Below, in pieces: positions 2,535 to 64,000 of a DNA stretch of 64,000 bases. The stretch lies in assembly GCA_020080175.1 (NCBI GenBank), contig JAGHQL010000009.1:180773-244772 (forward strand), written 5' to 3'. The number at the start of each line of letters is the position of its first letter. Position 1 is the stretch's first letter. This stretch comes from Glutinoglossum americanum. Lineage: Eukaryota; Ascomycota; Geoglossomycetes; Geoglossales; Geoglossaceae. The notes beneath the pieces were generated by a model. That model did no database searches. It was not told the origin of the DNA and saw only the letters and a program-made list of their open reading frames with translations. Made by a program: the position numbers and the translations under genes.

Positions 2535-5500
2535 CGTGATTGATATTTAGCCGATGAGTGTTGATCAACGGGTGGAGAGTGGAAATCGATCAGGATATCA
2601 AATCCGGAAGTGAAGTGTTAACGAAGTGATGCTGCTGAGTGCTTATGGACGATCAAGTCCAGTAAAGAACGAATTGAATTGAATTGAACTGAATGAATTG
2701 GAAATCGAGAGTCGAAGTGAAGGAACGGCTGTACTTGTATGTACCAAGTAATGAGCGTACAGAGGCAAAGAGAGCCGCAGACTCAGCTGCGCGTTGGGGT
2801 GATGCAAATGATTGTGGGTGGTTGACACAAGGAGGAAACGAGAAAACGAGAGGTGAATAAATAAATAGGTGGGTAGACCATCACACTGCCAGGACAACCA
2901 GCTACCCTAAACTTGCCGCGTAGCCCTATGCCAAGACCTGCAACCCAGATCATCGACGAAGAGACGCCGTGCGGGTCTTCGAAACGCAACATGGATAGAT
3001 GCAGGACTTACCTATCTTGGGTCTAAAACGGTCACCCTCTACTCGGGAGGATTTTGCTTGGTCTTTCTCCTGCACACTCCCGCCCCAGATGTCCTTCCTC
3101 TCCACGGCCATTTCGGACTCGTCAACGCAATCAAACAAGTCTTCTAATCTCGCCGGCGGCACAACAGGCTGGACAACGTATTCTAAACTGTGTAGCCACG
3201 ACAGCAGAGAGATCTCACGAGTGTACACGAGTGAGGGGTATGTTGGAATTAGTTCTACAACAGGTGTCGACCGTGCTAGAGTCTATCTCGTGTTGTCGTC
3301 GGTGGCTAGCAGGCGTCAAGGTGTTTCTGCAGGGTTCCGGGTGGTGATAAGGCCAAGGCAGGGTAGCGAATATTACGAGGATCTTCAATGCAGTGGAGCC
3401 TTGGGAAGGTGACCGGGATACGGCGAGACGAGGGAGCAAAACCAGACTTTCATCCAGAATTGGAACCGCTCCCCGCAAGTCTCCTCAGATGGATCTTATC
3501 GATTGGTCTCGACCCTCTCCCCAGAGCTGCTGATGGTCAAACCTCAGGCGATACTGTGGCCTTTGGGAAATCTCCATCCACATAGTGGAGTCATGCCGAT
3601 AGATAAATTCCTCGCAAACGCCATCACTGGGGGGCGATTATGGACCACCAACCAAAATTTCTCCTAACCCCCTTTGCCGGATAACCTGCATACGCCACGA
3701 CTAATCGCAGATCTTGAAACCAGCCACCGGGAGCGAAATTCGGAGGATAAACCTCGGACTCGGAAAGTGCAGAGCATGCACAGGCCAATCAGAGTGGTAT
3801 CCTGACATTTGGGACCACCTTGCTCCCGCACCGCCACGCGCCACCAACACGTTAATGGCTTTCCTCGCAACGTTACTCACAGACTCATACCTTTGGGGTA
3901 CCCCCCATCTCCTCTGTGTACCTTTGCTAGCCGGAAAAACTGGATCCTTCGTAATACAACAAAAGCTAATCACGAATTAGAGGGAGCTCCAATTCCCGAC
4001 ATGTGTCGTCACCCCTTCTTTGTTTCCGCCAACTCGGCCCTTCGAGACTCCTCCTTGACGGATGCCTACATTGCGGACAAATTACCGGAAATCCCCATCA
4101 CATCCTTAGAAATGTGATTCCCGGCGTCTATAAACCTCCGTGTACCAAGAAAATAATAAAACGGTAGAATTAAAAAGAAGCACATGTGTCCAACCACCGC
4201 CAGGCGCCCGCAAGGAATACCCCATCCCACGCCCGTTACACAACCCACGCAGCTCTCAGGGGCCAACCACAATAATAGCCCGACATACATCACTAAGTCC
4301 TCGGCAGATAAGCGACCAGTCTCTAAAGTCCGGAAACATAACCCTCCGTCCAGGGACCTTAATTTTGGCGGGTACGACACTCTTACATGGTGCCTAGAAC
4401 GGGGTGGATATTGCTCGGAAAGTTTATCCCAGGGGATTACGAGTCCTCTAATCTGGGGAAAAAAGAAAGGCATGACTTACCGCCGTACCACGCACAAAAA
4501 CTCCCAAATATCACCCGGGTGCCAAGAAAAAATTGTGGGGATAACGCATCCATAAGAGAAATAACAGAGTGGAAATTGATGTATCTTCCAAATTCAGAAA
4601 ATCTAGAGCTCCCTACACCCGTGGGGAGCCCGCGGTAACTGCCGTTCCGGAGGTCAGCCAGTAAAAAAAAAAAAAAAGAAAGAAAAGAAGAAAGAACCTG
4701 TGTACTCACTCCGCTCGGAAGGGATGACGGACAATTAACCATTCCTCTCATTTTAGCCATAGGGTAATTACCCGAATACCTCCCTCATCCTATTCACTCG
4801 GATGCCGCAATTTGGGTTTTGGCTTGCTCGCCTTCTTTTTCAAGTGTGTTTCTTTCCCCTCTCCTCTTTACGTTCCCGGAGTTGTACCCAATGGCTACGG
4901 AAACCCAGCCCGGACATCTGTGCTGCGATGCGGTGGTGTTCCTCCGGGGCATGTCTATGGTGATGGAAGCCCCCTCCCGGACATTTGTGCCGTGATACAA
5001 CGGTGGTCCTCTAGGTGCGCTTATAGCTGCGGGAGTCTCTCCCAGGCGTATATGCAATGATGCAACTATATTTCTCGGGTGGATACCTGTGGTGATAGGG
5101 ATCGCTTCCTAGCATATACAACTCACGGTGGTTTTGCAAATCGGCTTATATGGCATCTGGGTAGAAAAAATGAAAAGCCGTGGTGTTTGAGATGTTATCT
5201 CTATATTCATCTATTGCCTACGTATGGCCTCCTTCTTCCGTGGGGAAAAAAAGAAAAGCGAGCTCCTCTGAACCCGGCAATGTAGCTGTTCGGGAAGGGC
5301 TGCATAGTGAGTATTACAAATCCTCCCCGATGGTGTAACGTGTAGAGGCAAAATATCCTCCCCGGGTATCACTCAAGAGAGAAGCCGCCATATCCACCCA
5401 AAGCAATGCATACAATCCCATCCCTTCATAACCTAATCAATAACACTAAGTAACGGTAGGTAGAAAAGCCACGCCACCGTGCGTTACGCGACTGAAAAAG

Positions 5501-60347: not shown

Positions 60348-61200
60348 TTGGTTGAAATTTGCATGCGTGCACTCGCACAGGCAACCGCCTTGCCCTTGCC
60401 GGACGCCTTGTCCCTTGAGGTCAATACTTGCACTTGCATCGGGCAAACATGCGCGCAGATCCGCAGAGCTCGCCGGGGGAGACCGATTCTCAGACGTATA
60501 CAAATGATGCGGTGCATCCTGAGAACTGTTTCTCTCCCCCACGCTGGCGAGTGGCGGTGTCGTTAGGCATCCGCCAACCCTAAATTTGGAGAGGGTTTTT
60601 TCTTTTTTTTTTCTTTTTTTTTTTTGGCAGAATGACGACTTCAATCCTTGAATGTCTCAAGAGACCTGGGTCCGATTAGCACCTCGAGCGAAATCTCTCG
60701 TTCCAAAGCTCCTTTGTAACATTAGGCACGGTCGGGGGAGTTTTTTGGTTTATTTTTATTCGTCCTTGATTTTTTCTAATTTCTTGTTTTTTTTGTTCCT
60801 CCTCTCCCCAACCCAACGCATATCATCTATCATTTCGGGTGGGCATTTATTTTTTATTTTTTTTTATTATTTTAATTTTTTTTTTGGGTGGGCCATTCCG
60901 GTGTGTTTTTTAGTCACGGCAATAGAAATACCCCCTCCCGTCGAAAAGAAAGAAAGTGTCCTATGATCGAATAAAGGGCGATGCCGAGAAAGTTACACGT
61001 AGAGTGCGTAGTAGTGGCCCGACCAGAAACCAGCTGGGTAGGATAGGACCCTTTTTTTTTCCTCCCTTCTTATTCCCCGGGGGGTTTCGCCATGTCTCAT
61101 CCGAAGTTTTTTTTCTTTTTTCCCTACGGGGTACGATACATCATGTCATGTCGTGTGTACCACGGCAAGCACGACAAAGCATCCGTCGTCGGTACACCCG

Positions 61201-61226
61201 CACACACACACACTCTCTCTCTCTCA
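61201..61226 (+). repeat. Dinucleotide microsatellite (CA)n(CT)n
   Basis: A CA run passes directly into a CT run, read directly from the sequence. Confidence 0.9.
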
Positions 61227-61525
61227 CCTCCAGCGGGCCTTGTACGCGCGGAGAGAGGCAACAGGGTGTGCACATGTACATATATATACATGGGTACTCT
61301 AAGTCGTATAACCCCCCCCCAAAAATAAAAATAAAATAAAAAACAATCGTACCCGCCTACGGGGATGGCGGTGTGTCTGGAGATGTGTGTGTCGAGTTTT
61401 GGTAGAAAAGCGTAGAGTAAGACGGACTGAGATATGATAGAGTAGAGCGGGGATAGGGACATCTCTACCCGCTCGGGAGGGGGATGCCGGGCTCCGGATC
61501 TCAGCCCGTGGGGTTTTTTTTAATC

Positions 61526-61603
61526 ATAATAATAATAATAATAATAAAAGAAAGAAAGAAAGAATAAAAGAGAGGTTTTATTTTTATTTTTATTTTTATT
61601 TTG
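61526..61603 (+). repeat. Compound microsatellite (AAT)n, (GAAA)n, (TTTTA)n
   Basis: AAT units, then GAAA units, a short spacer, and then about five TTTTA-type units follow one another within 80 bases. Confidence 0.85.
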
Positions 61604-61681
61604 GTTTCTGGGAGACCTATCGGTATTTGTTTTTTATCCGTTTGTTCCTCCGTTTCCTTCTCGCTGGCGCGGAGCGGCCGG

Positions 61682-61756
61682 AAAAAAAAAAAAAAAAAAA
61701 CGCCCCGGGGATATGCGCGTGCTGGGGCCTTTTCTTTCTTTTCTTTTCTTTTTTTT

Positions 61757-61813
<57 letters not shown>
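61682..61813 (+). repeat. Poly-A run and 55-nt poly-T run
   Basis: An uninterrupted A run (61682-61700) is followed by T-rich sequence and a pure run of 55 T (61759-61813). The length of such a run is prone to sequencing error. Confidence 0.85.
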
Positions 61814-61973
61814 CCCCTTGGACGCTGCGGGAGAAGAGGGAAGGAGGTTCGCGGGCGGTGGTTTGGATTGGGTCTGGTTTGGTCTTGTGCCTTGGTATGC
61901 AATATCCACGGGGGGTTTTTACGTATTCCCCCCCCCCCGTATTCGCACGAAACAGGCTGCGTGGGTGTTTGTT

Positions 61974-62000
61974 GGTGTGGTGTGGTGTGGTGTGGTGTGC
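61974..62000 (+). repeat. Pentamer repeat (GGTGT)n
   Basis: About five perfect GGTGT units. Confidence 0.9.
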
Positions 62001-62360
62001 AGCCAGGTTTCCCGCGCATGACGCACAGGCCGTTCGGGCTCGCCCCGTTTGGGGTCTATTCTCCGTTCTGGTGTGGAGATAAGCCTTTTTTTTTTTTTTT
62101 TCCTTCTCTCGCGGTGGATTGAGGTTTTTTTATTTTATTTTATTTTCTGTTTACCGTAGGGAATGAAGGAAGGAAGGGAAGAGGGAAGGAAAGAGGGAAT
62201 AGGCGGACGAGTTTGCTCGATTGGCTAATTGGCGTCGAGATACAACACGATACGACATTCTGGGGTTCCCGAATGCAAAGGGCGACGTGCGTCATCGGAG
62301 GCGTCGGTGGCCCGTTTCGTCGTCATTGACCGTTTCAGGGACCAGGAAGTTTGTCGCTGC

Positions 62361-62407
62361 CCTGCCTTGTCCCGCCTTGTCCTGCCTTGTCCTGCCTTGT
62401 CCTGCCT
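62361..62407 (+). repeat. Decamer repeat CCTGCCTTGT, 4.7 copies
   Basis: Four full units, one with a single change (CCCGCCTTGT), and a partial fifth. It lies in the leader or promoter of the peroxidase gene. Confidence 0.9.
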
Positions 62408-62460
62408 CGACGCTTCTCTCCGCCTCTTCTTCTCTCTCCACCTCAACCTCTGCAACAACC

Positions 62461-62515
62461 AGCAACAACAACAACAGCAACAACAGCAACAACAGCAACA
62501 GCAACAGCAACAACC
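62461..62515 (+). repeat. CAA/CAG trinucleotide array in the peroxidase leader
   Basis: About 18 CAA or CAG triplets end roughly 25 bases before the peroxidase ATG. An unspliced frame continues upstream through this array, which would add poly-Gln, poly-Asn or poly-Thr text according to frame; it is more likely a 5' leader. Confidence 0.85.
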
Positions 62516-62539
62516 ACGACTCCGGCGAAACACGCAAAA

Positions 62540-63361
62540 ATGCCCAGAGAAGAAGAAGAAGAAAAAGAGCGAGACGGCTCCTTCTACTCCCTCTCCCACA
62601 CCACCGTAACCGGCGCTCCCTTCCCCTTCCACCCCCTCAAGAACAAAGTGGTCCTCCTCGTAAACACCGCCTCCCTCTGCGGCTTCACCCCGCAGCTCTC
62701 CGGCCTCCAAACCCTCTACCAGACCCTCTCCGCCTCCCACCCGGACCAGTTCCTCATCCTCGCCTTCCCCACCAACCAGTTTGCCTCCCAGGACCCCGAC
62801 CCCTCGCAGTCCATCCAGTCCTTCTGCCAGAAGAACTACGGCGTCTCCTTCCCCGTCCTCGCAAAGTCCGACGTCAACGGCGAGCGCGAGAACGACGTCT
62901 TCCGCTGGCTCAAGGCCCGCAGGAGGGGGCCCATGGGCCTGAGGAGGGTCATGTGGAATTTCGAAAAGTTCCTGGTCGGGAGGGACGGCGAGCTCGTGGG
63001 GAGGTGGGGCAGTCTGACGACCCCGGCGGCGCTGGAGGGCGTTATCTTGAGGGAGCTGGAGAAGGGCCCTCTTCCTCCGGGTGAGGGTGCTGCTACTGCT
63101 ACTACCACCACCACCACCACCACCACCACCACCACTGCGACTGAGGGTGCTGCGAAGGAGGACACCGAGACCGGGTCCCCCCCCAAGCAGTCCTCCTCCA
63201 GCGACACGACCCACAGCTCGAAAACCCTCGTCGGCAACTCCAAAGACGCTCCGACCGCCACCGCAACCGCGAAACCCCTCACCACCACCAGCAGATTCAC
63301 CCTGGGCTCCTGGCTCTCCGTCATAACCCTCGCCTTCTTCGTGACCGCCTTGTTGTTTTAA
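62540..63361 (+). CDS. Glutathione peroxidase-like protein with C-terminal membrane tail
   Basis: An intronless frame of 273 aa from the ATG at 62540 (context CAAAAATGC). Residues ~14-175 are a thiol-type GPx (Hyr1/Gpx3 group): peroxidatic Cys47 in NTASLCGFTPQ, Gln80 in FPTNQF, resolving Cys96 in SFCQKNYGVSFPVL, and Trp139/Asn140 in WNFEKFLV. The usual third cysteine (FPCNQF) is Thr. Family members usually stop near residue 165-175. Here ~100 residues follow: a poly-Thr run (188-199), a Ser/Thr/Pro linker, and the hydrophobic end SWLSVITLAFFVTALLF reaching the last residue. With no signal peptide this reads as a tail anchor that would hold the enzyme on the cytosolic face of an organelle. Third codon positions are overwhelmingly C or G, unlike neighbouring genes. 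Confidence 0.88.
   Translation: MPREEEEEKERDGSFYSLSHTTVTGAPFPFHPLKNKVVLLVNTASLCGFTPQLSGLQTLYQTLSASHPDQFLILAFPTNQFASQDPDPSQSIQSFCQKNYGVSFPVLAKSDVNGERENDVFRWLKARRRGPMGLRRVMWNFEKFLVGRDGELVGRWGSLTTPAALEGVILRELEKGPLPPGEGAATATTTTTTTTTTTTATEGAAKEDTETGSPPKQSSSSDTTHSSKTLVGNSKDAPTATATAKPLTTTSRFTLGSWLSVITLAFFVTALLF
63101..63135 (+). repeat. (ACC)n coding microsatellite
   Basis: ACC triplets encode the 12-Thr run of the peroxidase linker; length variation here would change linker length without a frameshift. Confidence 0.9.
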
Positions 63362-63906
63362 AAACCCCCCAAATTTGGCAAATGGAGTTTGTTATTGTGG
63401 GCTTTGTTATGGCTTACGGCTTACGGCTTACGGCTTAATGGTGTATATTAAATAAAAAAAAACGCCCAACTCGCAGGAGAGGGGAGAGGATAATGTACTC
63501 CTCCCTCCCTGCCCCTTTTATCAATTTAACTTTACGTACGAACGAGAAGAGAGGAGCGAGAGAAGACCAGGTGCGAGAAGCGCGATACCAACCAATCCGT
63601 ATTGAATGAACGAACACCCGTCTGTCTAGCTAGGCGAACCTCGCCATTGCCTCGCCACTCCTAAGGAATACTATCCCAACCCATCCTGCTCTACCCCACA
63701 AAACATTACTCTCTAGTAATAATAATAGTAATAGTAATAGTAATAATAACAACAGCTTCCCAACCGCTCCACCCTCACTCTCCCCCGCATAACAACAACA
63801 ACAACAACAACTGACCACACGCGCAACTCCACCTTGATAACAATATAACAAATACCCTACTGCCCTCTCAACACCTCACCCCCCCCAAAAAAAAAAAAAA
63901 AAAAAT
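63362..63906. other. Intergenic 3' flank of the peroxidase gene, repeat-rich
   Basis: No gene is supported. It holds a GGCTTAC repeat, a TAA/TAG array (63715-63755), an AAC array (63791-63811) and a C run followed by an A run (63880-63905). Confidence 0.6.
63411..63437 (+). repeat. Heptamer repeat GGCTTAC, 3.9 copies
   Basis: Three perfect units plus GGCTTA, just after the peroxidase stop codon. Confidence 0.9.
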
Positions 63907-64000
63907 TCAATTAATAGTACCCAACTCCCCCCTCCCCTCCTCCTCTTCCTCCACAACCATATCCCCAACCCCCTCATCCTCCCCCTCCCCCTCCCCCTCC
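63907..64000 (-). CDS. Possible 3' end of an acidic protein, cut by the window
   Basis: On the minus strand a frame enters from the right edge as Glu-Gly repeats (EGEGEGEDEGVGDMVVEEEE), continues EGRGELGTIN and stops at 63909-63907. Only ~30 codons are visible. The CCCCCT repeat at the edge encodes the Glu-Gly part, so this could equally be a non-coding microsatellite. Confidence 0.3.
   Translation of the reverse strand, partial: EGEGEGEDEGVGDMVVEEEEEGRGELGTIN

Follow-up and report, generated by a model that had tools for sequence, protein, structure and literature searches.

A Hyr1/Gpx3-type glutathione peroxidase with a predicted C-terminal tail anchor at a repeat-rich contig end of Glutinoglossum americanum

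Results

A single glutathione peroxidase gene close to the contig end

The window analysed here (64,000 nucleotides of Glutinoglossum americanum, from an assembly of 25.8 Mb in 317 contigs) ends together with its contig of 244,772 bases, and the gene for a glutathione peroxidase (GPx) stops 639 bases before this end (Table 1). The frame and coordinates given in a preliminary description of this DNA were reproduced unchanged. Six-frame searches of the same genome, both by family (threshold 0.001) and by protein, revealed no second GPx, and the gene is the sole one found in an assembly that may be incomplete. Two weak additional protein matches, L003 (E 0.001, residues 122-259) and L004 (E 0.12, residues 187-268), were rejected as further GPx genes, as they look like Ser/Thr-rich frames with hydrophobic ends.

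Table 1. Coordinates (window positions) of the features at the GPx locus and the evidence for each
Feature	Position	Strand	Evidence
Microsatellite- and homopolymer-rich contig end, contains the gene	60501..64000	.	repeat tiles; TRF
Upstream in-frame open stretch, 70 codons, without ATG and without acidic residue	62330..62539	+	third-position GC 0.36
GPx gene, single open frame, 273 aa plus stop	62540..63361	+	sole GPx match found in its genome
Thiol GPx domain, residues 13-175	62576..63064	+	Pfam; PDB sequence matches; structure model; Foldseek
Cys47 (TGC), peroxidatic cysteine by homology	62678..62680	+	aligns with Hyr1 and 6vpd; invariant in 30-row alignment
Gln80	62777..62779	+	Gln also in Hyr1 and 6vpd
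Cys96, resolving cysteine by homology	62825..62827	+	aligns with Hyr1 and 6vpd; invariant in 30-row alignment
Trp139-Asn140	62954..62959	+	aligns with Hyr1 and 6vpd; invariant in 30-row alignment
Thr/Ser-rich linker, residues 176-252	63065..63295	+	composition; mostly low pLDDT in both models
Thr12 run, residues 188-199, ACC microsatellite	63101..63136	+	codons; TRF
C8 homopolymer, possible sequencing-indel site able to shift the tail frame	63177..63184	+	frame checked 3' of the run
Hydrophobic C-terminal segment, residues 253-273, predicted tail anchor	63296..63358	+	hydropathy; single-sequence model; codon frame

The open stretch preceding the gene begins just 3' of an in-frame stop (62327-62329), contains near-cognate start codons and, in its longer forms, would add four basic residues. 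It thereby recalls yeast Gpx3, which enters the mitochondrial intermembrane space by means of a non-AUG N-terminal extension, as reported in PMC5368413. A mitochondrial form initiated at such a codon was nevertheless rejected given the low third-position GC of the stretch (Table 1), because of which we take it to be probably an untranslated 5' UTR.

The domain carries the residues of a 2-Cys thiol peroxidase

The Pfam family GSHPx matches residues 15-125 with an E-value of 3.1e-29 (101.1 bits against a cut-off of 27), and the nearest solved relatives by sequence are 6vpd (Trgpx), which we take to be fungal, and yeast Hyr1/Gpx3 (3cmi), with 47% and 48% identity, respectively, over the aligned part. 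Both belong to the same family and present the same set of Cys, Gln, Cys, Trp and Asn at the positions of Cys47, Gln80, Cys96, Trp139 and Asn140, so that the complete thiol GPx domain of the preliminary description is upheld. When aligned with 29 bacterial rows picked from 80 loci (30 rows with the present protein), Cys47, Cys96, Trp139 and Asn140 were invariant, and Gln80 was absent from the listed columns with at least 90% conservation. Cys47 and Cys96 are the only cysteines of the whole protein; residue 78, a Cys common to 3cmi and 6vpd, is Thr here. The model built from this alignment displayed a GPx fold with pLDDT above 90 over most of the domain, whereas its confidence was low from about residue 181 onwards; its top-ranked Foldseek match was human GPX8 (3cyn). 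From homology, the protein is assigned as a 2-Cys thiol glutathione peroxidase of the Hyr1/Gpx3 type with predicted activity. It departs, however, from a usual though non-defining trait of this type, namely a short chain without C-terminal extension, since it reaches 273 residues when 3cmi has 171 and 6vpd 192.

The extension is coding up to its stop codon

The C-terminal extension counts 98 residues (176-273), slightly fewer than the 100 announced beforehand, and consists of the linker, 34 of whose 77 residues are Ser or Thr and which is probably disordered, followed by the hydrophobic segment; the Ser/Thr linker and the run of 12 Thr within it were thus both recovered as described. The run is encoded by ACT, ten ACC and ACT. 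Although it had been presented as part of the finding, it is better explained as a product of local microsatellite expansion, and no functional reason is needed, because the same type of repeat-expanding region with GC-rich third positions recurs in the genome (see below). In contrast, the hydrophobic end is free of repeats, so microsatellite expansion does not account for it.

Third-position GC falls from 0.93 in the domain to 0.54 in residues 176-199 (a value dominated by the repeat and, for these residues alone, without coding bias), then rises again to 0.84 (residues 200-250) and 0.87 (residues 251-273). For residues 200-273 together it is 0.85, and the three codon positions differ significantly (p 1.7e-6), residues 200-250 being coding-like on their own (p 0.0008); the 13 codons between the ACC and C8 runs, alone, show no significant periodicity (p 0.7). 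Because the bias extends to the stop and then vanishes, with no codon periodicity in the following 222 bases (p 0.95), the tail is coding sequence up to the stop. In addition, a codon model trained on the GPx domain and on stretches of a riboflavin-kinase frame from another contig end (L119) gave the annotated frame 0.37 per codon 3' of the C8 run, against -0.88 and -0.24 in the other two frames, and fell to between -0.84 and -0.57 after the stop.

Candidate introns were also considered. Under a strict rule (CTRAY plus YAG), no acceptor occurs in 61000-63700; this rule misses AAG acceptors, one of which appears to be used by a tubulin intron of the same genome (L006), and it was therefore widened. 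The resulting loose consensus gave 23 pairs, 13 of them within the gene, and 6 of the latter would put the tail out of frame. Four of these six begin in, and remove part of, the end of the domain that is conserved in the family (aligned with Hyr1 and 6vpd), and the other two, running from 63081 to 63291 or 63294, would remove the coding-like linker.

A single hydrophobic segment closes the protein

No 17-mer of the protein is more hydrophobic than its last one (257-273, mean Kyte-Doolittle hydropathy 2.13), in agreement with the 17-residue segment noticed earlier, and the best windows of 15, 17, 19 and 21 residues all finish at the final residue. For the last 19 residues, a total of -0.95 was obtained on the Hessa biological scale, using here and in the chance comparison what we take to be the values of that scale. 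When 2050 stop-ended open frames of at least 60 codons were sampled from this genome, only 2 (Hessa) or 6 (Kyte-Doolittle) had an end at least as hydrophobic, and shuffling the extension equalled the real best 17-mer once in 20000 shuffles. No comparable segment exists elsewhere in the protein, the best 19-mer of residues 1-250 being a domain strand (37-55, Kyte-Doolittle 1.18), and no N-terminal signal peptide is apparent from sequence and hydropathy, the protein starting MPREEEEEKERDG. A single-sequence model placed a helix at residues 256-272 (pLDDT 89-91 for residues 261-273, in a model whose mean is only 54), and the alignment-based model a short one at 261-271 with low confidence (about 53). 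The segment is short, has Ser, Thr and Trp among its residues, and runs right up to the stop codon, a feature shared with GPI signals.

The protein thus displays what is expected of a tail anchor as judged by hydropathy scales, that is, a single hydrophobic segment near the C terminus and no N-terminal signal, and a tail anchor appears to be the best reading of its hydrophobic end. The protein had indeed been described as apparently tail-anchored: the coding extension and a plausible single C-terminal membrane segment are in line with this, and anchoring itself is read from the sequence. Regarding the target membrane, one review (excerpts of PMC8644595) describes ER-type anchors as long and hydrophobic, with nonpolar or negative residues, or none at all, behind the segment, and mentions a moderately basic element for some mitochondrial proteins. 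Yeast mitochondrial anchors are reported to be shorter and more hydrophilic than secretory ones (excerpts of PMC2572727), a scale on which the present segment has no clear place, given its shortness and its Ser and Thr residues. Of the ER, peroxisomal and mitochondrial membranes proposed at the outset, the ER seems more likely, because no residues follow the segment; it is nevertheless short for the ER rule, which keeps the other two membranes in consideration.

Comparable tails among listed relatives

A contig search for relatives returned 164, and the best 80 were all bacterial by record title. The viral collection gave no relatives with the single-protein query and 173 with the 30-row alignment as query, of which the best 80 were retained. 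In 159 of these 160 listed loci, none of them identified as fungal, the best-matching frame was closed by a stop inside the locus, and none of the 159 frames had a 17-mer of mean hydropathy of at least 2.0 in its last 40 residues; in 120 of the 160 (43/80 and 77/80, respectively), the match extended as far as query residue 145. An apparent 348-residue extension at one locus (L105) was discarded because it arose from a false second domain within a long open frame. Since this comparison set is bacterial and viral, a hydrophobic tail may be common in some fungal clade. The literature searched for membrane-, tail- or GPI-anchored fungal GPx, including passages of PMC10315666, describes no tail-anchored GPx.

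The gene lies in a recurrent type of repeat-rich region

Among 112 tiles, the last 3.5 kb of the window have the highest content of tandem repeats, homopolymers and short repeats (114 overlapping tiles were made, two with N were left out, and the ten other contig ends are not among them). TRF arrays cover 139 bases per kb there, against 0-33 in 26 stretches of 9-10 kb; the highest value among the ten other contig ends is 106 (L116, which shares the repeats only). Third-position GC of the domain (0.93) also exceeds that of two tubulin stretches (0.58 each, one of them spanning an intron and the L007 match being omitted) and of four other genes of the window (0.47-0.55). However, contig end L119 combines a third-position GC of 0.93 over 120 codons with 67 TRF bases per kb, L118 shows 0.84 with 73 bases per kb, and L120 reaches 0.96 with short repeats but without TRF array, while L113, L115 and L121 have few such repeats. 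Of 453 open stretches of at least 120 codons, taken from both strands and with overlap between some loci, 25 attain a third-position GC of at least 0.75 over 120 codons. Two of these 25 lie at the GPx gene, whose best value (0.95) is approached only by L119 and L120. Pfam matched the frame of L119 clearly and that of L118 marginally, and gave no match for L120. The L119 frame (3148-3999) encodes a riboflavin kinase (Flavokinase, Pfam 4.2e-23) with a Thr14 run from a CCA repeat inside the matched domain. The gene therefore sits in a region type that recurs in its own genome, with expanding repeats and GC-rich third positions. A foreign insert or assembly chimera, which the high third-position GC and top repeat rank could have suggested, is considered unlikely since L119 and L118 show both traits and L120 the codon trait; in addition, no other GPx was found in the assembly.

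Discussion

Altogether, we consider it likely that the genome's own Hyr1/Gpx3-type 2-Cys peroxidase is joined, through a flexible Thr/Ser linker, to a single hydrophobic helix acting as a predicted tail anchor in the ER or nuclear envelope, with the enzyme facing the cytosol. We infer the following steps of insertion and signalling. The tail would be captured after translation by the GET route and enter the membrane of the ER or nuclear envelope, leaving the peroxidase on the cytosolic side, where the linker would let the domain act near the membrane on lipid hydroperoxides and H2O2. Cys47 would then be oxidised and resolved by Cys96, and the oxidising equivalent passed to thioredoxin or to a partner such as a Yap1-family factor; the Thr run, a microsatellite by-product, would only set linker length. 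The genome does contain an ArsA/Get3-family gene (6.5e-102), assigned to Get3 from PDB matches whose best chains are those of Get3, 3ibg and 3iqw (over a 200-residue stretch), presumably from Aspergillus and Chaetomium, matches that suggest a filamentous ascomycete. Note that this family also matches in 14 of 14 control genomes, and GET machinery, expected in any fungus, says little about tail anchoring. A PAP1/Yap1-family gene is present as well (5.1e-87), with a cysteine cluster that we take to be the n-CRD, and it could be linked to the GPx. In the broader and more doubtful form of this proposal, the sole GPx of the fungus would be this membrane protein, and both the removal of lipid hydroperoxides and the peroxide relay to a Yap1-type factor would start at the membrane. 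The peroxiredoxin C-terminal domain matches at three places in the genome, and the GPx is probably not its only thiol peroxidase, so that the loss of a soluble GPx could be buffered.

Other readings dispense with a tail anchor. A soluble GPx whose extension is a neutral product of a repeat-rich, GC-biased region, its end being hidden, clipped or used as a degron, would fit the extreme repeat density of the last 3.5 kb and the riboflavin kinase, which indicates that low-complexity additions are tolerated; this remains unlikely, as the terminal segment is non-repetitive and outdone in hydrophobicity by very few chance ends. It is more improbable still that the tail is merely apparent, an unrecognised intron or an indel in the C8 run concealing a protein with a soluble end. 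The donor at 63081 (GTGAGG), with acceptors at 63291 and 63294 and the branch point CTCAC, would indeed delimit introns of 211 and 214 bases, neither a multiple of 3, thereby dropping most of the linker and shifting the tail frame, and the homopolymer is a possible site of error. However, the codon signal 3' of this homopolymer backs the annotated frame, a copy-number error in ACC would preserve it, the residues lost with such an intron (200-250) are coding-like, and the strict rule, which would miss AAG acceptors, finds no acceptor.

Alternatively, the Ser/Thr stretch and terminal hydrophobic segment might constitute a GPI attachment signal of a secreted, cell-surface GPx, an architecture resembling that of L003 and L004. 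We regard this as very improbable because no signal peptide is apparent. One could only come from an additional 5' exon joined to the frame beyond the in-frame stop at 62327-62329, and a consensus scan, which does not amount to proof, detected no acceptor preceded by a CTNAY branch point between 62239 and 62779.

If tail-anchored, the protein would differ from known membrane-associated peroxidases, and a membrane location would be unusual for an enzyme of the GPx type. Human GPX8 is likewise a Cys-type GPx anchored in the ER membrane, with its peroxidase in the lumen, and plant APX3 belongs to the haem peroxidase family, unrelated to GPx. GPX8 is a type II protein with an N-terminal transmembrane segment (excerpts of PMC10017475), whereas the present protein has its predicted anchor at the C terminus and would expose the enzyme to the cytosol, in the opposite topology. 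APX3 is a tail-anchored hydroperoxide-removing enzyme with sorting signals in its C-terminal tail (excerpts of PMC8644595) and targets the peroxisome, while the ER is favoured for the predicted anchor of the present GPx. Among yeast GPx, Gpx1 is reported as peroxisomal and Gpx2 as mitochondrial (excerpts of PMC5546064), and the second address of Gpx3 is given by its N-terminal extension instead of a predicted C-terminal anchor. A membrane-bound form would offer a natural test case for asking whether the location of the peroxidase matters for lipid-hydroperoxide reduction and peroxide signalling in fungi.

If the tail is neutral, the gene would instead illustrate the remodelling of conserved enzymes in a repeat-rich, GC-biased genome region. 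Over 120 codons, the third-position GC of the contig-end frames (0.84-0.96) stands apart from the value of about 0.5 seen elsewhere, and such ends are possibly regions driven by recombination or gene conversion, where the assembly stops. On the minus strand of the GPx gene, an antisense open frame of 162 codons (window 62836-63324) also has a high third-position GC and most likely mirrors the composition of the sense strand.
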